A stretch of DNA of 64,000 bases from Liolophura sinensis (taxonomy: Eukaryota; Mollusca; Polyplacophora; Chitonida; Chitonidae), in contig NC_088297.1 in NCBI RefSeq assembly GCF_032854445.1, positions 8,791,375 to 8,855,374 on the forward strand. Direction: 5' to 3'. Every line of letters begins with the position of its first letter. The stretch's first letter is position 1. A program made the translations under genes and the position numbers. Below, piece by piece: positions 639 through 50,645 of the stretch. The notes under the pieces are model-generated. The model was not told the origin of the DNA, searched no databases, and saw only the letters and a list, made by a program, of their open reading frames with translations.

Positions 639-3600
639 TGCTCAGTGACAACATTCTTCAGTCTAAATTTTTGTTCCCTTGACCAGAGTTTCCCGCTGCA
701 CACCACTACCCAGTTATCACCTGGATAAAAGAAACTCTAAACAGTTATCACCTGGATAAAAGAAACTCTAAACAGTTATCACCTGGATAAAAGAAACACT
801 ACCCAGTTATCACCTGGATAAAAGAAACTCTAAACAGTTATCATCTGGATAAAAGAAACACTACCCAGTTATCACCTGGATAAAAGAAACTCTAAACAGT
901 TATCACCTGGATAAAAGAAACACTACCCAGTTATCACCTGGATAAAAGAAACACTACCCAGTTATCACCTGGATAAAAGAAACACTAAACAGTTATCACC
1001 TGGATAAAAGAAACTCTAAACAGTTATCACCTGGATAAAAGAAACACTAAACAGTCATCACCTGGATAAAAGAAACACTACCCAGTCATCACCTGGATAA
1101 AAGAAACACTACCCAGTTATCACCTGGATAAAAGAAACTCTACCCAGTTATCACCTGGATAAAAGAAACTCTACCCAGTTATCATCTGGATAAAAGAAAC
1201 TCTACCCAGTTATCATCTGGATAAAACAAACTCTAAACAGTTATCACCTGGATAAAAGAAACACTACCCAGTTATCACCTGGATAAAAGAAACTCTAAAC
1301 AGTTATCACCTGGATAAAAGAAACACTACCCAGTTATCACCTGGATAAAAGAAACACTACCCAGTTATCACCTGGATAAAAGAAACACTAAACAGTTATC
1401 ACCTGGATAAAAGAAACACTACCCAGTTATCACCTGGATAAAAGAAACTCTAAACAGTTATCACCTGGATAAAAGAAACTCTAAACAGTTATCATCTGGA
1501 TAAAAGAAACACTACCCAGTTATCATCTGGATAAAAGAAACTCTAAACAGTTATCACCTGGATAAAAGAAACTCTAAACAGTTATCACCTGGATAAAAGA
1601 AACTCTAAACAGTTATCACCTGGATAAAAGAAACTCTAAACAGTTATCACCTGGATAAAAGAAACACTACCCAGTTATCACCTGGATAAAAGAAACTCTA
1701 AACAGTTATCACCTGGATAAAAGAAACACTACCCAGTTATCACCTGGATAAAAGAAACACTACCCAGTTATCACCTGGATAAAAGAAACACTAAACAGTT
1801 ATCACCTGGATAAAAGAAACTCTAAACAGTTATCACCTGGATAAAAGAAACACTACCCAGTTATCATCTGGATAAAAGAAACTCTAAACAGTTATCACCT
1901 GGATAAAAGAAACTCTAAACAGTTATCACCTGGATAAAAGAAACTCTAAACAGTTATCACCTGGATAAAAGAAACTCTAAACAGTTATCACCTGGATAAA
2001 AGAAACTCTAAACAGTTATCACCTGGATAAAAGAAACACTAAACAGTTATCATCTGGATAAAAGAAACACTACCCAGTTATCACCTGGATAAAAGAAACT
2101 CTAAACAGTTATCACCTGGATAAAAGAAACACTAAACAGTTATCATCTGGATAAAAGAAACACTACCCAGTTATCACCTGGATAAAAGAAACACTACCCA
2201 GTTATCACCTGGATAAAAGAAACTCTAAACAGTTATCACCTGGATAAAAGAAACTCTAAACAGTTATCACCTGGATAAAAGAAACACTACCCAGTTATCA
2301 CCTGGATAAAAGAAACTCTACCCAGTTATCATCTGGATAAAAGAAACTCTAAACAGTTATCACCTGGATAAAAGAAACACTACCCAGTTATCACCTGGAT
2401 AAAAGAAACACTACCCAGTTATCACCTGGATAAAAGAAACACTACCCAGTTATCATCTGGATAAAAGAAACACTACCCAGTTATCATCTGGATAAAAGAA
2501 ACTCTAAACAGTTATCACCTGGATAAAAGAAACACTACCCAGTTATCACTTGGATAAAAGAAACTCTAAACAGTTATCACCTGGATAAAAGAAACACTAC
2601 CCAGTTATCACCTGGATAAAAGAAACACTACCCAGTTATCACCTGGATAAAAGAAACACTAAACAGTTATCACCTGGATAAAAGAAACTCTAAACAGTTA
2701 TCACCTGGATAAAAGAAACACTAAACAGTTATCACCTGGATAAAAGAAACACTAAACAGTTATCACCTGGATAAAAGAAACACTACCCAGTTATCACCTG
2801 GATAAAAGAAACTCTAAACAGTTATCACCTGGATAAAAGAAACACTACCCAGTTATCACCTGGATAAAAGAAACACTAAACAGTTATCATCTGGATAAAA
2901 GAAACAGTACCCAGTTATCACCTGGATAAAAGAAACTCTAAACAGTTATCACCTGGATAAAAGAAACTCTAAACAGTTATCACCTGGATAAAAGAAACAC
3001 TAAACAGTTATCACCTGGATAAAAGAAACACTAAACAGTTATCACCTGGATAAAAGAAACACTAAACAGTTATCACCTGGATAAAAGAAACACTAAACAG
3101 TTATCACCTGGATAAAAGAAACACTACCCAGTTATCACCTGGATAAAAGAAACTCTAAACAGTTATCACCTGGATAAAAGAAACACTACCCAGTTATCAC
3201 CTGGATAAAAGAAACTCTAAACAGTTATCACCTGGATAAAAGAAACTCTAAACAGTTGTCACCTGGATAAAAGAAACTCTAAACAGTTATCATCTGGATA
3301 AAAGAAACACTAAACAGTTATCACCTGGATAAAAGAAACTCTAAACAGTTATCACCTGGATAAAAGAAACACTACCCAGTTATCACCTGGATAAAAGAAA
3401 CACTAAACAGTTATCATCTGGATAAAAGAAACTCTAAACAGTTATCACCTGGATAAAAGAAACTCTAAACAGTTATCATCTGGATAAAAGAAACACTACC
3501 CAGTTATCACCTGGATAAAAGAAACACTAAACAGTTATCACCTGGATAAAAGAAACTCTAAACAGTTATCATCTGGATAAAAGAAACACTAAACAGTTAT

Positions 3601-6600
3601 CACCTGGATAAAAGAAACACTAAACAGTTATCACCTGGATAAAAGAAACAAATTCATTTATATTCATTTGACCGATGTCTTACAAACAAAAACAAACAAA
3701 AGTATAAACGTGGTCACTTATTATCATTTCACAGGATCAAGTAAAGAGACACTGTACAGACTGAAGTCTTCCCACAGCAGCCCCAGTAGTAATCCTTGCG
3801 GTTAGAAGCTAACCACACGACTAAGTTACCGAATTTCACCTTAAGTTTAGCATTCGTCGAGATACATATTTTGCTCTGATTTTTTTTTTATTCTGACTGA
3901 CCCATGCACCTTAAGGGCCACTAATGAGGTTTTTTTTTTTCTTCTTGTGCAGTACAAAGGTAAAATTTCAATAACACAAACACTCAGTATACAGGTCAGG
4001 TGCTTCTTCAGATCTAGCCAGTTCATGCTGTGAATGGTCTCTAGAATTGGACTTGATTCTACAAGGGCTTTTAGTCAAAATTTAAAACTCTGTCACAGTG
4101 CTTTACTTTTCGGTAGTCCAAATTGAAATTTTGATACTTTTGTCTTTAGATAACATTCGTGGGACAGGGTTTTTCACTTTCAATGTGAATCCAGTTCTTG
4201 TCAAAATCTGCTACAGAGTCTGCTTTGATTCCCAGAAAAAGTCACATTTGAACTCTTTTTTTTTTTTTTTCACAATAAAATATACATGTACAATGTTTTG
4301 CCTTGTTAAAGAAATGAACGTAGAATTCCCAAAATTTGTTTTGCAATAAAACCTTTGGAGCAAGTGCTTTGTAATATTGGATAATCATATGCACTAGATT
4401 CCGATGGATACCTGAAGATTTAAGTCCAGAGTAAATATTTAGATTCTGGTGAAAAATGATGAAATGCTCCAAATTTTTATTTACTGGCCTCCAAAACAAG
4501 CTCTACAAACTGCATTTCCATTTTTTTTACTTAACGTATAAATGGCTTTTTGGAATGAAAAACTCACGTCAGTCTAATTTATGTGCTTTATTGTTCTTTT
4601 CTTTTATACTTCGTGCTTTCTGTAAGCTTGTAGTTCAAATCAAAGATGTGTTTTTACACCCCTTGGAACCGACTTATTTGGCCAAAATTAAAACATCTCT
4701 GTTGGGTCAACCCTATGGACCCTCCGAAAACAGATCCTATTCGACAGTTTTTATAAGGACTTTGATGAAATTTTTGTCTTTATTTCTCTCAATGATAATT
4801 TCTTTAAAATCCCTCTCCCATTCAAAATAAAAATGCTGCTTGCCGACCAATCCTATTTTGTGTGATATTCTGGTGTTACTGTAATTCTTCAACCTTTTCA
4901 CATGTATGTTTGCAAGATGTTTATTCATGAGCATTATTTTGCATAGACTGATAAAATTACACTCTTTACGAAGTCCTGAAATTGGTCAACCCAGCCGGTG
5001 TTCTTTTGAAAGTAAATTAAAAGGTGCATAAATCTGACTGAAAGTTGCTCTTTCACGTGCAAAAAGACTGAGGGATTAGGATAGTCCCATCCAAACTGTT
5101 TAGAAAACAAGGGTAGCCTTAGATGGAAAAAATGTCCCTTCAATGGCTCATGGCATTGGTAGGACTTTAACTTACCCTCATCGCCTTCTCCCCCTTCCCC
5201 AAAGGCGCTGACCTCCAGGTTGTGGGAGAGTGGCGAGTTGAAGTGATGGCTGTGTAAGTTACGTTTGGTGGACAAGTGCATGAGGCGGATTGTCTGGCCA
5301 CACTTTATAGGCACTCTGAAAAACAAACCCAGAGGCAAGTCAGGAAAAGAGGAACAGTTACTTCAGGTCTAAACCTCAAGCATATACATGTATTTATTTA
5401 TCTGACGTGTGATTAACAGCGTAATGAGTTGGATTCGAATTTTATCTGCTGATTTCAAAAACATCACCGGACAAAAGATAAAAGCAGAATTCAAGCAGAA
5501 CATTAAGCGTGGTAACATTTGAGGGTTGGGGGACTACATGGCCAAGGTGGTTAGCGTGCCACCGCAGCACAAGCACAGATGAGCCTTTCAACAGTGCCGT
5601 TGTTGTGAGTTCAGTCCAGCCTATGCTAGCTTCCTCTTTTGCTGCACATGCAAAGGTCTGCTAGTGATGGTTGTAGGTTTCCCCAGGGTTCTGTCAGGCT
5701 TCATCCCACTACAACCCTAGCTACCACTGTACAGGTGAAATATTCTTGGGTATGACATTGTAACCAATTTCGTACATTGTAAGAAATTTGCAGTGCACCA
5801 ATACCTCTTTAGCATGTCTTTTAAGATCACCCAGGAGCCAAATTTATCTTCTTCTCCACTTCTGCCTAATGCTTATTATAATGTACTTAGTAATAATAAA
5901 TTTCTGTTACAATGTACTCTATAATAACACATTTCTGTTACAATGTACTCTACAATAACACATTTCTTACTCAAATATAATTCACATATACAACGGAAAA
6001 TGGTTGCCAGTCTCATGGTGGGAGGAAATCAGGCAGAGCCCAGCATAACCAATAACCATTCCCACATTGCTGTCACTGGTAGACCTTCCCACGTCCAACC
6101 GGAGAGAAAGCCAGCAACATCTGTAATATTGTACTCATCACTATTACATGTCCATTACAATAATTCCACTATAACTACATGTGTGTTAGAGTGAGTGAGT
6201 GAGTGCTTGGGGTTTAATGTCGTACTCAACAATTTTTCAGTCATATGACGACGAAGGAATCATTAGGGTGCATGTACGTGTAATGTGCCTCCTTGTTGCA
6301 GGACAGATTTCCACCGCTCTTTTATTTAGTGCTGCTTTACTGAGACGACTTACCCAAGGCAAGTAAGCCGCCCCGCCCGACCCATTATACTGATATGGGT
6401 CAACCAGTCGTTGCACTATCCCCTTCATGCTGAACGCCAAGCAAGGAAGTTACAACTTCCTCTTTTACAGTCTTTGGTGTGACTCGATCAAGGATTGATC
6501 CTGAATCCACCAGTCCCGAAGCGGACGCTCTACCAACTGTGCTATCCGGGCCGGTATCAAGGATTGATCCTGGATCTACCGGTCCCGTGTGTTAGAGTGT

Positions 6601-8360
6601 ACTCACCCTCTATTACACGTAGCTCCAGTTTTACCCTTCACTTGCCAGTAACTGTTATGATCATCAGATCCTTCCACACCCGTTACAGACTGCAAATACA
6701 TGAAATTACTTAGCTAGCAAGTAATTTATTTAATCTTCGAACACCAAAAATAAATTTTTTCACACCGTACATAATTTTTTTCTTTTTTTTTTCTTTTTTG
6801 CCATGTTAGACAAAGTGTAAGTTTTTTCATAATAACTCTGATTTCAATACATGTAAATCAAGATGTAATTATGTTTTGAAATTTTACTTTTGTTGGTTGC
6901 TCTCTGGCTGTATGTCAGCTCTCATATTTTTCCTGCACGTTGGATGTCAGATCTGACATTATACTGTATGTTGGATGTCAGATCTGACATTGTACTGTAT
7001 GTTGGATGTCAGATCTGACATTATACTGTATGTTGGATGTCAGATCTGACATGGTACTGTACGCTGGATGTCAGATCTGACATTGTACTGTATGTTGGAA
7101 GTTGTTAGGTCGTATTTTACATATACACTTATCACATTTTACCTGCTGGCCACTTCCTGTGCCATACTTGACATCATGGGAGTGCAGGCGGATTTTATGT
7201 TGCGAGTTCTGTAGTTTTACCACTGAATTGCAAGTTACAAATTCGTAGTCAAAATCTGTGAACAAAAACCAAATATTAGTGCATGGATATACGTTATGAC
7301 TAGAATAACGCAAAATCGTTACTGAAAACTGATTTTATTCACATATTTGAATTCGTCTGACATCCAAATATGGAGCATACAGCTTAAATGCCTTATGCCT
7401 CCTCACAAGCAATAAGATGTCTTATGGGTGGAAGAAACTGGAGTGACCTGGGTAAGCCCTCAACCTTCTGACACTGTCTCATGTGTGTCAGGCCGAGAAG
7501 ATGCTGACATTTTCAAAAAGTATAATCCAACTTCTACCCGGTCGCACGACACATCAAGGTATGTCCCTTTTTCATCACTTTCTGACGGCATCAATTTATG
7601 TACGTTCAGTGAGTGAGTGAGTGCTTGGGGTTTAACGTCGTACTCAACAATTTTTCAGTCATATGACGACGAAGGAATCATTAGGGTACATGCACGTGTA
7701 ATGTGCCTCCTTGTTGCAGGACGGATTTCCACCGCTCTTTTATTTAGTGCTGCATCACTGATGACGACTTACCGAAGGCAAGTAAGCAGCCCCGCCCGAC
7801 CCATTATACTGATACGGGTCACCCAGTCGTTGCACTATCCCCTTCATGCTGAACGCCAAGCGAGGAAGTTACAACTTCCTCTTTTAAAGTCTTAGGTGTG
7901 ACTCGACCAAGGATTGATCCTGGATCTACCGGTCCCGAAGCGGATGCTCTACCAACTGTGCTATCCGGGCCGGTATATGTACGTTCAGTCATCGCAATTT
8001 ATTTCATAAATTTATGTGTGGAGGAAAGGTAAAGTGGATGGCATACAGATTTTAATCAAATCTTGTTGCAGCATATAAATGTTATATAATCAAGCTAGTT
8101 GCTGAGGTGCCGGTGTATGTGCCTCCCACAGATAATTTATAATTAAAGAGTTGTTATGCTATGGACAGAAGCCCCTACAACAACAACAACACCACCACCA
8201 CCCTGCTGAACAATTCTGGAATCTTATCATCTGAAATACTTGCTGCCCAACAAACACAGATTGGACTAGACTTACCGTACGCAACAGAAGAGGATAAAAC
8301 GACGAGAAAAGAGAGAATGGCTCTTAAGAAGCCGAGTGCGATCTGCCTGGGATACGCCAT
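639..8360 (-). CDS. SDF2: SDF2 (stromal cell-derived factor 2-like), five exons, 3' end off window
   Basis: Coding exons are 8360-8276, 7255-7143, 6689-6607, 5315-5176 and 720-639, with consensus splice sites and matching phases (1,0,2,1). Exon 1 encodes a 28-residue signal peptide from the ATG at 8360. Exons 2-3 give the first MIR domain (VTCNSVVKLQN, LHSHDVKYGTGSGQQ, NSYWQVKGKTG). Exon 4 gives the second (VPIKCGQTIRLMH, RNLHSHHFNSPLS, EVSAFGEGGEGD). Exon 5 starts the third (DNWVVVCSGKLWSRE). About 167 residues are visible of the usual 210 or so; the YGRPI part and ER-retention tail must lie left of position 1. In animals SDF2/SDF2L1 is an ER-lumen protein that works with the Hsp40 ERdj3 in chaperoning secretory clients. 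A TGACGTGT element, similar to unfolded-protein-response elements, lies about 35-45 nt upstream of the ATG; its role is inferred. Family assignment is secure; SDF2 versus SDF2L1 is not separable here. Confidence 0.93.
711..3649 (-). repeat. 31-bp tandem array built from the SDF2 exon-5 splice acceptor
   Basis: There are 94 complete 31-bp units (711-3624) plus a 25-bp partial unit, with no length change: (3625-711)/31 is exactly 94. On the minus strand a unit reads TTTCTTTTATCCAG then GTGATAACTGGGTAGTG, that is, the last 14 nt of SDF2 intron 4 and the first 17 nt of exon 5 (boundary 721/720). A second unit type has GTTTAG in place of GGGTAG and is interspersed with the first; a third variable position gives CACCTGG or CATCTGG on the plus strand. 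Each unit holds a pyrimidine tract, a CAG|G acceptor and a branch-like GATAAC. It also contains an imperfect palindrome TTATC-acctg-GATAA. Confidence 0.97.
5527..5765 (+). mobile_element. SINE1, old near-full copy in SDF2 intron 3
   Basis: Head GGCCAAGGTGGTTAGCGTGC, B box GTTGTGAGTTCAGTCCAG and tail GTGAAATATTCTTGGGTATG are recognisable. The copy is strongly diverged and lacks the A-rich end. Confidence 0.75.
5880..5966. repeat. Short 31-bp-period tandem repeat in SDF2 intron 3
   Basis: The word AATGTACT recurs at 5880, 5911 and 5942, and ATTTCT at 5900, 5931 and 5962. This is an exact 31-bp period over about 2.8 units. It is unrelated in sequence to the array in intron 4. Confidence 0.8.
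5998..6118 (-). mobile_element. SINE1 partial copy in SDF2 intron 3
   Basis: Core only: CATGGTGGGAGGAAAT at the left and CCGGAGAGAAAGCCAGCA at the right match the SINE1 middle in antisense. The tail is missing. Confidence 0.65.
6190..6555 (-). mobile_element. SINE2 (second tRNA-headed family), full copy in SDF2 intron 3
   Basis: Read on the minus strand it starts with a tRNA-like head (GATAGCACAGTTGGTAGAGC) and ends with TTGAGTACGACATTAAACCC and CACTCACTCACTC. It stops next to SDF2 exon 3. A 32-bp piece of its head is duplicated at 6556-6588, showing a local tandem duplication. Confidence 0.88.
6940..7098. repeat. 31-bp tandem repeat carrying a 14-bp perfect palindrome, SDF2 intron 2
   Basis: The perfect palindrome TGTCAGATCTGACA occurs at 6945, 6976, 7007, 7038 and 7069, each exactly 31 bp apart, followed by a decayed sixth unit. 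The unit sequence is unrelated to the other two 31-bp repeats of this gene. Confidence 0.93.
7609..7976 (-). mobile_element. SINE2, full copy in SDF2 intron 1
   Basis: Very similar to the copy at 6190-6555 over its whole length, from the GAGTGAGTGAGTG tail to the tRNA-like head GCTATCCGGGCCGGT at the right end. The two flank SDF2 exons 2-3 in the same orientation. Confidence 0.9.
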
Positions 8361-15056: not shown

Positions 15057-17395
15057 TTTTGCGGCTGGCCATCTATGTGTGCAAGACAGGTTCTTCAATT
15101 GCGTAAAAAATATAACAGAGCGGATATAACGTCTGTGGTGCTATCTGAAGGGACTGTCACTCACGACTCCGATCTCGTGTCACCCGGGTGCTTGTTAAAG
15201 CTAGCCTATGCTCTGTAACAACAATGGTGCACTTATAAAAGATTGATTATCCTTGACCCAGCGTAAGACCTCGAAGAGACAGTCCATTTGATATTGCAAG
15301 TTTTCGGAATTATTCCGCTTTTTGTTGATTTGTTTCATTGACGGATCGCTAAACTCTGCGATCAACATATATAAGGCCTAGAAAATAAGTAAAATTATTT
15401 TTCGCTTGTTTTCTTTCTCAGCTTCCTTCCTCCTTATTTATTGTTTGACAAAATCACATTTAATTTTTATAACACCTAATCATCGCGATAAAATTCAATT
15501 TTCTACATGCACATGTAGGTCTATCGACTAATTATTAAAGTCAAATGAGCGTCTGTCGTGTCTTCCCTCACGCTTGCATACACGTGACGAGTTTGTCAGG
15601 TCACGTGATCATGGCTGTTTGAAGCCATGTCTTTTTTGGCCTACCTTCCTTTGTTCTTGTGACAACGGATTCTTCTCGCTCTCTTTGATATTGGTTTTTC
15701 GTCGTTTTAAAGAATGTAGGTATTCTTGCTGTTGAGAAATGGAGATGTTTTCCTGATGTTTGATTTTAGCCTGATCTTTGATTCGCTGCACATCTAAGCA
15801 CAGTGCAAAGACGAATCGAAAGCCCAGATCGTAAGACCTGCTCCTTTGGATTAAAGAGTACAGCTTACTATACAGATTCTTCTGTAATGTTTGTTGACGA
15901 GGCGTTTGAACATTTTGAACATCGAAACTCAACATATATTTCGACCCTAATCTAGGTTAATGGTAGATTGATGAATTAGCCATGTTGAGTATACATGAGT
16001 ATACATGAGTATATCGCAGCCATAAAATTAGTGTAAGATGATATGTTAGGTAAAGTACACTACAACACTGTGGAAAATATGATGGCCGGGTACATGTGTA
16101 TAATATTCTTTTTGTGGCATTGATTGCTTGATTGATTGCAAGCGTTTAACATATTTCTATTTGTCTGGATGATGGGTGGAGTAAAAAGGTGTGACCGGAG
16201 TAAGTCACTGACATTATATTCCGGCACTGTACCTGACAAACCTCGGTCATGACTTAAAACTTAGTCCAAATATGAGAAAGCTATTCGAAAAGGCGATCCC
16301 ATTCGTTGGTCAAGGACGGTTATAGCTAGCAAGTAACAGATCTTTAACCATATAAGCCAGCTGGTTGTTGATTTTTTTTATAATCTTTTACCTTTTCTAA
16401 CCTGTACAAAAAAGCTATAACGTGAAATATGTAGGCTGTTACCTCTATCCACAGAGACTGTGCTAAAGTGTTATATGTCACACCGTCTCAAATAATGTCA
16501 ATAAAAACATTCACTCGTTGACTTTTTTTATTTCTAAGGAGACTACAAAGGTTGTGAAACATAACTGGTGATAAATAAATTTCATTTGGTGTTTATTATG
16601 CAATTACAAAAGTTAAGTGGTTTTCTATTATTATATGGAACATATTACAAGAAAATGAACTGGGGTTACCTGTTTAACTCTCACCTTAAAACCAAAAAAT
16701 CTTCAGTTAAGTGGTTTTCAGCTTTAAAAAGCCAAAAAAAAAAAAATGGCGGGCAAATCAGAAGCAGACGTTAATTAAGCGTGTTAATTAGCTAGACACG
16801 ACATGTTGTATAACCGTGTAACGATCAGCAGCTCGCTCGCATGAGATCCAAGTACGTGGAGAAATTAATTCCTTTCTTAATGCACTAGTTGTTTATTACA
16901 TATAAATTCCGATACATTTACTATTTATAGTAGCCATGTATAGTAAAGGTTTTGTGCGCTTCAGCTCTTTTGAAAAACTTTCAGCTTGTTTTAGAGTAAA
17001 CGTTCATTTATTGTTTAGAATAAAGTTCCATGCATTTCCTAGTGTAAACTTTCAGCTACACCCAAAAATTAATCTGTTAATTTTAATAGAATGTATGTTG
17101 TCTGAGTGATGCCATGTTTCAAGATTAATTAAGTTCAGAAAAAATGGCGGGATGAAACCGAGCAGATCCCGAGGGAAACCCACAACCATCCTTAGGTTTC
17201 CAGCAGATAGTTCAGAGTACAGTTCCATGTATGTCATAGTGTAAAATTCCGGGTAAGTTCTGACCAAAAGTCATTATTACATGTCACCAGTGTACAGTTA
17301 CTCAGATGCCGTGTTGTCACGTTCAACAAACGATAATGTGGAAATAGTGTCAGATACCAGGCTTAGAATATACGTTCACGCAACGCAAAATCGCG
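15057..17395. other. Gene-free interval
   Basis: I see no supported gene. A 108-codon minus-strand open frame (15935-15609) has no recognisable domain, splice context or promoter. A diverged SINE1 core fragment lies at 17146-17212 (minus). A CACGTGAC/TCACGTGATC pair of E-box words lies near 15585 and 15600. Confidence 0.5.
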
Positions 17396-18425
17396 TTTCA
17401 TGCAGACACTCAGAGCATGCAGCAGAATCGCGGTTCTTGCAGACACTGAGAGCCTTCTGCAAAATCGCGGTTCTTGCAGACACTGAGAGCATGCAGCACA
17501 TTCGCGGTTCATGCAGACACTGAGTGCATGTAGCAGAATCGTGGCTCATGCAGACACTCAGAGCATGCAGCAGAATCGCGGTTCATGCAGACACTCAGAG
17601 CATGCAGCAGAATCGGGGCTCATGCAGACACTGAGAGCATGCAGCAGAATCGTGGCTCATGCAGACACTGAGAGCATGCAGCGGAATCGTGGCTCATGCA
17701 GACACAGAGAGCATGCAGCAGAATCGGGGCTCATGCAGACACTGAGAGCATGTAGCAGAATCGCGGTTCATGCAGATAATGAGAGCATGCAGCACATTCG
17801 CGGTTCTTGCATACACTGAGAGCATGCAACAGAGTCGCGGCTCATGCAGACACTGAGAGCATGCAGCAGAATCGCGGCTCATGCAGATACTGAGATCATG
17901 CAGCACATTCGCGGTTCTTGCATACACTGAGAGCATGCAACAGAGTCGCGGCTCATGCAGACACTGAGAGAATGCAACAGAATCGTGGCTTATGCAGACA
18001 CTGAGAGCATGCAGCAGAATCGCGGTTCATGCAGACACTGAGAGCATGCAGCAGAGTCGCGGTTCATGCAGACACTGAGAGCATGCAGCATAATCGCAGT
18101 TCATGCAGACACTGAGAGCATGCAGCAGAATCGTGGCTCATGCGGACACTGAGAGCATGCAGCATAATCGCGGTTCATGCAGACACTGAGAGCATACAGC
18201 AGAATCGCGGTTCTTGCAGACACTGAGAGCATGCAGCAGAATCGCGGTTCATGCAGAAACTGAGAGCATGCAGCAGAATCGTGGCTCGTGCAGACACAGA
18301 GAGCATGCAGCAGAATCGCGGTTCATGCAGACACTGAGAGCATGCAGCAGAATCGGGGCTCATGCAGACACTGAGAGCATGCAGCAGAATCGTGGCTCGT
18401 GCAGACACTGAGAGCATGCAGCATC
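17396..18425. repeat. 37-bp minisatellite, about 28 units
   Basis: The unit contains GCAGACACTGAGAGCATGC and AGCAGAATCGCGGTTC. The array runs about 1.03 kb with frequent CGCGGTTC/CGTGGCTC/CGGGGCTC alternation. The period is not a multiple of three, so open frames inside are shadows of the repeat. Every unit carries a GCATGC palindrome or its decayed form. Confidence 0.95.
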
Positions 18426-46984: not shown

Positions 46985-48262
46985 CTGACCATCCCTCAGC
47001 CCATAAGAGAAAAGGCAAAAAAAAAAAAAAGAATGGCCTGGAAATAGAAAAAGGCATATATAATGTTGTACATGTGTATATATAGAAACGTTTTCGTTTA
47101 AAATTGCCATGTTTTTAATTGCTTTAGTGTAATTTTACACTGTCTAGTCGCGTAGTTTTATCGTCTATTCTAGATGCGTGACAAAAATTGTGATACCTGC
47201 GTATTTATGTTCAGTAGGTCAGTGGATATAGTACTATCCACTAGGGACACGTGTACTAATGAGCCCGTGGTGAGATAGCACACAGGTGTGGTATTAATTA
47301 AACCTTGCAGGTAGGTATATCGCCGGTGAGAATTTATTCTGTGTCAAGTTACGACCCACTGACCTTAAAAATGATTTCACGAAAATACACATGGTTCGTT
47401 TAAAATTCGACTCGAGTTATGGATACCACGAGAGAAAAAAAAACGCATTAACAGTGAATTAGAATATATTTTTTTCAATACGATGCTGAACTGTTTTCTG
47501 GTCTCCAATCTTTTAAATGAAATGTGTCCAGTTTTATCGGTTGAAAATTTTTATTTGTGTTCGATGTCTGGCATTGGTCACCCGACACCACAGTCGCTGA
47601 CTTCAGAAGTGAAAAACAGAGTACGAGATGTAAAGGATATTTCACTGAGTCACCAACGCTGTGTTTCACGGGAACAAAGCCTCTCAAGTCGATTTCATGT
47701 AGATCCGGAGATTTCACCTTGAAGATTTTGTGAATGACATATACAACTTCAGGGGTTTCTGTGTTTATGAAACCGATGCTCATTATATATCTGAACCGCA
47801 TCGATTCACATTATCCTCTAAATAACTGGCTTAATTTGATCACATATCCCTAATCACTGATCAGTTCTAATCAAGGTTTGTTAATTTGTTTTCCACTAAA
47901 AATACCGAAAATTGCTTATTTCTATTTCTGCTAAAAACCCTTATAATTTCAATACCGATCGTGATGTAATCATTAGCATTTATTCCCTTAACATGGAAGG
48001 ATCGTTCATTTTAATCATTTCGCTAATGGATTCTGTAAGATGACTGACTGATTTCTACTTTTTATGTGCGTTCCACAGCAGGGTGAATAATAGAAAGTCT
48101 CATAAATGTGCTGAGTCCTTCCTCGAAGTTGACATTCGACATTTGACCTTCAACCTACGCTATACGTGGCTGTAAACAAGGCTGAGATGGAAATACAGCT
48201 TCTCTCATTGTTTTTCAATTTCAAACTGGACATAGTTTTATATGTAATACCCATGCGATTTA
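46985..48262. other. Gene-free interval
   Basis: Contains poly-A runs and a 108-codon minus-strand open frame (47801-47475) without a recognisable domain or splice context. No feature is supported. Confidence 0.5.
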
Positions 48263-49085
48263 AGTAACCTTTGAGTTACACCATACCTAAGTTGTCTTTG
48301 TATTCAGAAAGATTTAAATCACTTCTGAGTCACGCCATACCTAAGTTGTCTTTGTATTCAGAAAGATTTAAATCACTTTTGAGTCACGCCATACCTAAGT
48401 TGTCTTTGTATTCAGAAAGATTTAAATCACTTTTGAGTCACAACATACCTAAGTTGTCTTTGTATTCAGAAAGACTTAAACCACTTTTGAGTCACACCAT
48501 ACCTAAGTTTTTAAATCAATTTAAATCATTTTTGAGTCACACCATACCTAAATTGTCTTCATATTTCGGACAATTTAAATCATTTTTGAGTCACTTCATA
48601 CCTAAGTTGTCTTTGTATTCAGAAATATTTAGGCCACTTTTAAGTCACAACATACCTAAGTTGTCTTTGTATTCAGGACAATTTAAATCACTTTTGAGTC
48701 ACGCCATACCTAAGTTGTCTTTGTATTCAGAAAGATTTAAATCACTTCTGAGTCACGCCATACCTAAGTTGTCTTTGTATTCAGAAAGATTTAAATCACT
48801 TCTGAGTCACAACATACCTAAGTTGTCTTTGTATTTAGAAAGACTTAAACCACTTTTGAGTCACGCCATACCTAAGTTGTCTTTGTATTTCGGAGAATTT
48901 AAATCATTTTTGAGTCATCTCACGCCATACCGAAGTTGTCTTTGTATTCAGGATAATTTAAATCACTTTTGAGTCACGCCATACCTAAGTTGTCTTTGTA
49001 TTCAGGACAATGTAGATCTGTTTTGAGTTACGTCATCTATAAGTTGTCTTTGTATTCAGAACGATTCAAATCACTTAAAAAATCA
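48263..49085 (+). repeat. 54-bp minisatellite, about 15 units, open in one frame
   Basis: The unit contains CATACCTAAGTTGTCTTTG, TATTCAGAAAGATTTAAATC and ACTTTTGAGTCAC. Since 54 is a multiple of three, a 234-codon frame stays open (18-residue repeat IPKLSLYSERFKSLLSH with A, N, T or F first). It has no ATG start in frame and is broken at about 48918 by a length change. Differences between units fall at all codon positions, so I see no sign of selection on a protein. Confidence 0.9.
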
Positions 49086-49920: not shown

Positions 49921-50645
49921 CCCAATCATACCTACATCAGCCCACCAGACGTGACACCCGACCCATTATGCTGACACCTGCCTACCAGAGGTGACACCTC
50001 ACCCATTATGCTGACAACAGCCCACCAGATGTGACACCCCAACCAGTCACAATATGCTGACACTAGCCCACCATACATGACACCCCCACCCATTATGCTG
50101 ACACCAGCCTGCCAGAGGTGACACCCTACCCATTCACAATATGCTGACCCTAGCCTACCAGACGTGACATCCCACCCATTATGCTGACACCAGCCCACCA
50201 GACGTGACACCCCACCCATTATGCTGACACCAGTCCAACAAGATGTCACACGTCACCCAGTCACAGTATGCCGATACCAGCCCACCAGACGTGACACCCT
50301 CACCCATTATGCTGACAACAGCCCACCAGACGTGACACCCCAACCAGTCACAATATGCTGACACTAGCCCACCATACGTGACACCCCCGCCTATTATGCT
50401 GACACCAGCCTACCAGAGGTGACACCCTACCCATTCACAATATGCTGACACTAGCCTACCAGACGTGACACCCCCACCCATTATGCTGACACCAGTCCAA
50501 CAAGACGTCACACGTCACCCAGTCACAGTATGCCGATACCAGCCCACCAGACGTGACCCCCCTCCTGTCACACTATGCCAGTAAAATCCCAGCAGATGTC
50601 ACACCTCACAGTCACAGTATGCACCAGCCAACCAGAAGTGACACC
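49921..50645. repeat. Tandem array of about 40-bp units derived from SINE3
   Basis: Two alternating unit types: one with CACCCATTATGCTGACACC, the other with CAACCAGTCACAATATGCTG, each joined to CAGCCCACCAGACGTGACACC. The same words occur once inside the SINE3 body at 22.4 kb. Blocks near 50005-50190 and 50304-50490 repeat in the same order, about 299 bp apart (higher-order repeat). Confidence 0.9.

Follow-up and report, generated by a model that had tools for sequence, protein, structure and literature searches.

An array of 95 splice-acceptor copies in intron 4 of SDF2 in the chiton Liolophura sinensis, and splice-site arrays in other conserved genes

Intron 4 of the SDF2 gene of the chiton Liolophura sinensis ends in 95 tandem copies of a 31-bp unit that carries the intron's own splice acceptor. 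The gene lies in the stretch of 64,000 nt analysed here (hereafter the window; NCBI RefSeq assembly GCF_032854445.1, contig NC_088297.1, positions 8,791,375 to 8,855,374 of the forward strand). The copy nearest to exon 5 serves the coding junction; the other 94 copies, referred to here as decoys, would all give a premature stop. Exons of other conserved genes in the same genome also carry arrays of their own splice sites. We regard it as probable (roughly 0.7) that the SDF2 array is a near-neutral minisatellite, one of several in a repeat-rich genome, that is tolerated through exon definition of the exon-proximal copy.

The SDF2 gene and its true acceptor

SDF2 lies on the minus strand and is intact, with six exons, of which the first is predicted and the last lies beyond the window (Table 1). 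The spliced protein contains an MIR domain (PF02815, 56.1 bits against a cut-off of 25.6) and matches solved SDF2 relatives (1T9F, E = 8.6e-61; 3MAL, E = 8.4e-47). Together with an HDEL tail, these features place it in the SDF2 class, the signal peptide of that class being present by prediction only. Exon 1 is a candidate, picked from three by donor score and nearness. In a genome search with a query lacking exon 1, all five matches were exons 2–6 of this gene, and no duplicate or processed copy of SDF2 was seen.

The protein alignment runs across the exon 4/5 junction without a gap against both 1T9F and 3MAL. Exon 5 therefore begins at 720, and unit 1 of the array is the coding acceptor. An initial annotation of this stretch had proposed SDF2, intron 4, the acceptor and its phase, and had taken the exon-proximal copy as the real acceptor with exon 5 starting at 720; the gene model and the alignments bear this out.

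Table 1 Positions of SDF2, its acceptor array and splice-site arrays of other genes (positions without a prefix are those of the window; a slash marks a splice boundary).
Feature	Position	Strand	Details
SDF2 exon 1	8360-8276	-	Predicted: ATG, hydrophobic signal peptide, donor ACG/GTAAGT, matching phase
SDF2 exon 2	7255-7143	-	Protein search of genome and spliced model
SDF2 exon 3	6689-6607	-	Protein search of genome and spliced model
SDF2 exon 4	5315-5176	-	Protein search of genome and spliced model
SDF2 intron 4	5175-721	-	4455 nt; donor GAGG/GTAAGTT
SDF2 exon 5	720-639	-	82 nt; donor GAGCA/GTGAGT; junction aligned to solved relatives
SDF2 last exon	near G000:C3:8787987-8788163, just outside the window		Ends in HDEL
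Splice-acceptor array	704..3648	-	95 units of 31 bp, head to tail, without indels
Unit 1, coding acceptor	704..734	-	TTTCTTTTATCCAG/GTGATAACTGGGTAGTG, boundary 721/720
Unit 95	3618..3648	-	Nearest exon 4 and first to be transcribed; unique intron sequence upstream lengthens its pyrimidine tract
Myosin V exon (L139)	G000:C2:5376700-5379000		Acceptor TTTGTAG/GTTTGA, 48 copies with AG, 32-bp array
CCT gamma exon (L076)	G000:C8:53404900-53407400		Donor CAG/GTGTGTA, 11 copies, 66- and 88-bp units
Proteasome subunit exon (L137)			Donor array, 6 copies, 4 with GT
Myosin exon (L138)			Donor array, 66-bp unit, 7 in-phase copies
Myosin exon (L141)			Donor array, 124-bp unit, 8 copies with GT
Myosin exon (L113/L143)			Donor-like copies, 32-bp unit, starting 64 nt downstream; loosest case
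Matches of GCAGGTTGCTG	24, 560, 12128, 28243, 30166, 33300, 34990, 41154, 58401

Anatomy of the array

Tandem Repeats Finder (TRF) called the array at 704-3650 with a period of 31, 95.1 copies, 93% matches and 0% indels. The array forms the 3' end of intron 4 and covers 66% of it. The unit consists of the final 14 nt of the intron followed by the opening 17 nt of exon 5 (TTTCTTTTATCCAG/GTGATAACTGNNTAGNG), and the commonest form on the minus strand is TTTCTTTTATCCAG/GTGATAACTG(GG or TT)TAG(T or A)G. The earlier count of about 95 copies in 31-bp register agrees with these 95 whole units, and we accept the accompanying description of the array as recent or homogenised; its start has been corrected from 711 to 704. 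A branch-like A, read from the sequence, lies 24 nt before the next AG, so that the 31-nt repeat contains a minimal acceptor; the branch-like site closest to the true acceptor now falls among the exon-derived bases of unit 2.

The array resembles the splice-site minisatellite of human ABCA7, described below, in that 94 of its 95 units keep the AG, it adjoins exon 5, and its exon-proximal copy serves the coding junction, as the gap-free alignment indicates. Exact matches to a 21-nt core of the unit numbered 90 in the searchable part of the 609-Mb assembly, all of them inside the SDF2 array (diverged copies would be missed by such a search), and we rejected a dispersed or mobile repeat as the source because these matches are confined to the array.

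An artefact of assembly that inflated or collapsed the copy number is barely credible. The array is embedded within a 27.5-Mb contig and is free of indels, its unit variants are mixed, and other long arrays occur elsewhere in the assembly. The order of the units shows no significant higher-order repeat: lags of 28, 13 and 11 units gave single p values of 0.02–0.04, but the best over all lags gave p = 0.68, and 69 of 500 shuffles had a repeated block as long as the longest observed, of 7 units, or longer.

Two more arrays with a 31-bp period lie in SDF2 introns 3 (5876-5967) and 2 (6939-7099), their units unrelated by eye to those of the acceptor array. SDF2 intron 5 holds an array of 18 copies of an 87-bp unit (positions 6563-8120 of L005).

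Variation among units and the consequence of decoy use

Only 27 of the 95 units, and so 26 of the 94 decoys, are identical to the true one. The remainder differ mainly at three places: TT stands in place of GG at positions 25–26 (57/95 units), A in place of T at position 30 (42/95), and A at position 15, the first exon-like base (16/95); five further positions vary, each in one or two units. The splice junction reads CAG/GT in 78 units and CAG/AT in 16, and one unit is without an AG, which among the decoys corresponds to 77 AGGT, 16 AGAT and 1 AAGT. The branch-like GATAAC is present in 92 of the 95 units (91 of the 94 decoys). The initial annotation had described every unit as equal to the border sequence and as having CAG/G and GATAAC; the first part stands for the 27 identical units alone, CAG/G does not hold throughout, and GATAAC holds nearly everywhere.

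The same annotation had predicted a stop 12 codons into the exon upon use of any decoy, and this proved correct for all 94. The stop from the nearest decoy falls 78 nt upstream of the exon 5/6 junction. Nonsense-mediated decay is subject to a 50–55 nt rule, and the decoys might be regulatory, sending a controlled share of SDF2 pre-mRNA to that pathway. Such a role would fit both the uniform stops and the position of the nearest one, but we consider it very unlikely. The acceptor positions are without visible constraint, with 2 changes at 14 positions against 6 at the 17 exon-derived positions (Fisher p = 0.24, few events; changes were tallied by hand, with positions 25–26 counted as one change). 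Similar arrays also occur in unrelated genes of our sample, and six of the ten decoys of the CCT gamma gene are in frame without a stop, so that decay is not a theme common to these arrays. The decoys of SDF2 have not been purged of their AG, which is lost in 1 of 94.

How the true acceptor may be chosen

Splice sites were scored with matrices built from conserved genes of the same genome (18 acceptors and 21 donors), and the scores are rough. The 18 acceptors came from 21 intron pairs, two of which had no candidate and one of which (L038/L039) was too ambiguous to use; at L033/L034 we took the candidate ranked second, which was nearer to the match ends, and the pairs L035/L036 and L044/L043 are off by one residue. 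The acceptors were selected partly on pyrimidine content, and the donors of SDF2 introns 1 and 2 stand outside the donor matrix.

On this scale the array units scored 9.7–11.4, the AGAT units 6.7 and the AAGT unit 3.2, values inside the range of the real reference acceptors when each was left out in turn (-1.2 to 12.6). The true acceptor is not the strongest by score among its near-identical copies: its context scored 9.7, and unit 95 had the highest value of the array contexts scored (17.9). Predicted local folding made the tract and AG of the true copy the least accessible of the 95, with its AG alone ranking 89th, and we rejected the idea that folding of the RNA leaves the true site exposed, since the reverse is predicted. 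The centroid fold of the true acceptor has an 8-bp hairpin across the AG, of which TT-type units retain 3 bp, and accessibility of the AG differs between GG-type (38) and TT-type (57) units (p = 0.003). Five folded stretches were without strong excess stability relative to shuffled sequences (z = 0.09, -1.63, 0.46, -1.00 and -0.12).

Scores and folding thus revealed no mark of the true copy within the acceptor itself, and the features that distinguish it lie downstream. Unit 1 alone is followed by an 82-nt exon with one GAAGAA and a GTGAGT donor. That GAAGAA, which we take to act as an enhancer, is the only one in SDF2 exon 5 and is absent from the array units. Since the sequence upstream is, unit variants aside, alike for most decoys and the true acceptor and the difference lies downstream, exon definition is the most likely means by which unit 1 is chosen: its 3' site would be paired with the downstream donor, with a contribution from exonic enhancers.

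The array itself most likely arose by tandem duplication of a 31-bp segment across the SDF2 intron 4/exon 5 border, which unequal exchange or slippage would have expanded to a 95-unit minisatellite, intronic except for its final unit. Growth would have been possible only toward the intron, since the copy continuous with the remainder of exon 5 has to be kept. Most likely, too, the decoys leak at a low rate, the resulting transcripts, stopped at codon 12, would be degraded, and the array is close to neutral; the decoys would be tolerated as long as exon definition favours the one copy that has a real exon behind it.

Several points weigh against this account. The exon 5 donor (GCA/GTGAGTA), which follows the consensus on its intron side and not on its exon side, scores 1.6, the lowest of the 21; with so poor a donor, exon definition of exon 5 cannot be expected to be easy, and our confidence is lower for it. 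The donor-like sequence of the decoys (CAG/GTGATA, 3.9) scores higher than this donor. The case for neutrality draws on eight changes, which are few events, and the possible prevalence of such arrays, at several percent, is a small estimate (6/100, from a single genome). By analogy with ABCA7, in which exon 19 is skipped, a large array may affect splicing, and skipping of the 82-nt SDF2 exon 5 would shift the frame.

The donor scores also bear on stepwise (recursive) removal of the intron, in which each AG/GT unit would be dual-specific and the joining of exon 4 to a decoy would recreate a donor (AGG/GTGATA), to be respliced until unit 1 is reached, which would repair decoy use. We consider such removal unlikely. 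AGGT is present in 77 of the 94 decoys, as is the donor-like CAG/GTGATA, and the donor half outscores the exon 5 donor both as it stands and when recreated at the exon 4-decoy junction (3.2). Ratchet-point donors are reported to be generally stronger than the donor of the following exon (PMC8605326), and UBC provides a precedent for a tandem array of dual sites (PMC10809524). In absolute terms, however, the decoy donor half is weak: its score falls among the lowest of the 21 reference donors (1.6–11.6), its T at +5 occurs in none of them, and an equal or higher score was reached by 10.8% of the 7928 GT sites in the window. Furthermore, the 16 AGAT decoys would permit no exit, yet they have not been lost. 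A wider reading, in which splice-site minisatellites occur genome-wide in the lineage and intron 4 is removed via at most 78 enter-and-leave units with the AGAT units as dead ends, we consider quite unlikely.

Splice-site arrays elsewhere in the genome

The initial annotation had called the question raised by the SDF2 array unusual. That the array is singular was not borne out in a sample of 100 conserved exon regions from the L. sinensis assembly alone, chosen without regard to repeats: in 6/100 the exon's own splice site is repeated in additional tandem copies, as one acceptor array and five donor arrays (Table 1). The sample took in 40 of 50 chaperonin, 20 of 21 proteasome and 40 of 81 myosin rows, with several exons per gene; the myosin rows are mostly short open frames, the longest of 194 aa. 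Flanks were 80 nt for chaperonins and 150 nt for proteasome and myosin, and the first 40 regions were initially fetched for the splice matrices. Before longer flanks were read, TRF arrays overlapped the exon match in 6/100 regions; reading the flanks removed L123/L140 and added L113/L143, which left the count at 6/100.

The myosin V array (L139) is a close twin of the SDF2 array, and all 47 of its decoys lead to a stop. At the CCT gamma exon (L076), the first six of the ten decoys would add in-frame pieces of 22 codons each without a stop. The exon-proximal copy gives a gap-free protein junction in these two of the six cases. A loose count of 40 copies for L138 was inflated by GT repeats within the unit, and the in-phase copies were used in its place; L143 has 20 matches at no more than 5 mismatches in 17 positions, 11 of them with GT. 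Reversed-sequence controls gave no matches for SDF2, L137, L138, L141 and L143, 1 for L139 and 10 for L076. The loose count is therefore unspecific at L076, and we rely there on 11 exact copies of CAGGTGTGTA.

Of the sampled flanks 7.4% consists of arrays, as do 1.4% of the exon matches and 6 of the 200 edges of those matches; exon borders are thus hit, though less often than flanks. In the window, arrays make up 10.9% of the sequence, or 6.6% excluding the SDF2 array. Our sample suggests that, where minisatellites abound in a genome, repeats can extend across a few percent of the exon borders of conserved genes, which bears on intron gain through tandem duplication.

At some other sampled exons, arrays lie close to splice sites. 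At L140 (oriented 492-1580), a 43-bp array ends some 8 nt short of a myosin acceptor and covers the branch-point region but not the AG, and arrays at L142, L144, L145 and L146 are near a splice site but not across it. A genome-wide search with the pattern triple TTTTNCAGGT returned 81 matches in about 20 arrays (L056-L075), with 42 for a control pattern; these arrays are excluded from the 6/100 count. The units of one of them, L072, contain TTTTACAGGTAAG, by eye a good acceptor/donor hybrid.

Relation to known systems

The choice between a true splice site and near-identical ones is usually studied with built constructs, and the classical duplicated-site experiments of Reed and Maniatis in 1986 are reportedly the laboratory counterpart of the SDF2 array. 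The array is a natural experiment on how the cell selects one true site among near-identical copies: a single intron supplies 95 near-identical acceptors that differ mainly downstream, with internal variants AGGT, AGAT and AAGT. Recursive removal has an internal test in the 16 AGAT units, and with further acceptor and donor arrays in conserved genes, exon definition, proximity and recursive repair could be compared by RNA mapping alone.

The human ABCA7 intron 18 variable number tandem repeat (VNTR) has a 25-bp unit containing the exon 18 donor, in about 12 to 427 copies, and spans 298 to 10678 bp in different people (PMC5954066). Its first copy is the canonical donor, and an isoform that we interpret as retention of one unit occurs at 2 +/- 1%; skipping of exon 19 increases with VNTR length, up to 45 +/- 10% in one brain region (PMC5954066). 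As in SDF2, a splice site is repeated in a minisatellite whose start coincides with an exon border; the canonical site is the copy closest to the exon, and splicing at the neighbouring copy alters the reading frame. The two differ in that ABCA7 repeats a donor rather than an acceptor, in a 25-bp rather than a 31-bp unit, and in that an effect of length on splicing is known in ABCA7.

UBC and VCX3A have an AGGT in the repeat unit, as 77 of the 94 SDF2 decoys do, and in those genes it is usable as acceptor or donor (PMC10809524). The UBC unit, however, is coding and a multiple of three, whereas that of SDF2, at 31 nt, is intronic and does not preserve the frame, and its donor half is weak. Recursive ratchet points likewise resemble the SDF2 unit in placing a donor-like sequence directly after an acceptor (PMC8605326), but they show conservation and are found for the most part in long introns, in contrast to the weak donor, repeated unit and 4.5-kb intron of SDF2.

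Duplications across exon borders provide further parallels. The intron gain in potato RdRp involved a duplication that spans the acceptor and copies the branch site, pyrimidine tract, AG and exon start (PMC4974935), as the SDF2 unit does; it was a single duplication whose new intron is shown by RNA reads, whereas SDF2 has 95 copies and no new exon is known. Human genes in segmental duplications carry exon-intron minisatellites comparable to that of SDF2, with 27 intron modifications and a mean unit of 30 bp (PMC2812944), but these average about 4 copies and belong to recent primate paralogs, whereas SDF2 is single-copy with 95 units. Splice-site arrays are thus a kind already known from ABCA7 and UBC, and what is new is an acceptor array, its copy number and, possibly, the prevalence of such arrays. 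In the open-access literature we found neither a description of an acceptor array this large nor one of a genome with such arrays at several percent of conserved exons, subscription journals being mostly outside the search.

Other features of the window and genome

Further long minisatellites in the window lie at 17385-18423 (37 bp x 28), 48257-49076 (54 bp x 15) and 49934-50645 (46 bp x 17). A dispersed sequence containing GCAGGTTGCTG has nine exact matches on both strands (Table 1) and is perhaps a short interspersed element. The mollusc hemocyanin domain, a mark of a mollusc genome, gave eight consecutive matches in the genome, and one unit is best matched by solved hemocyanins.

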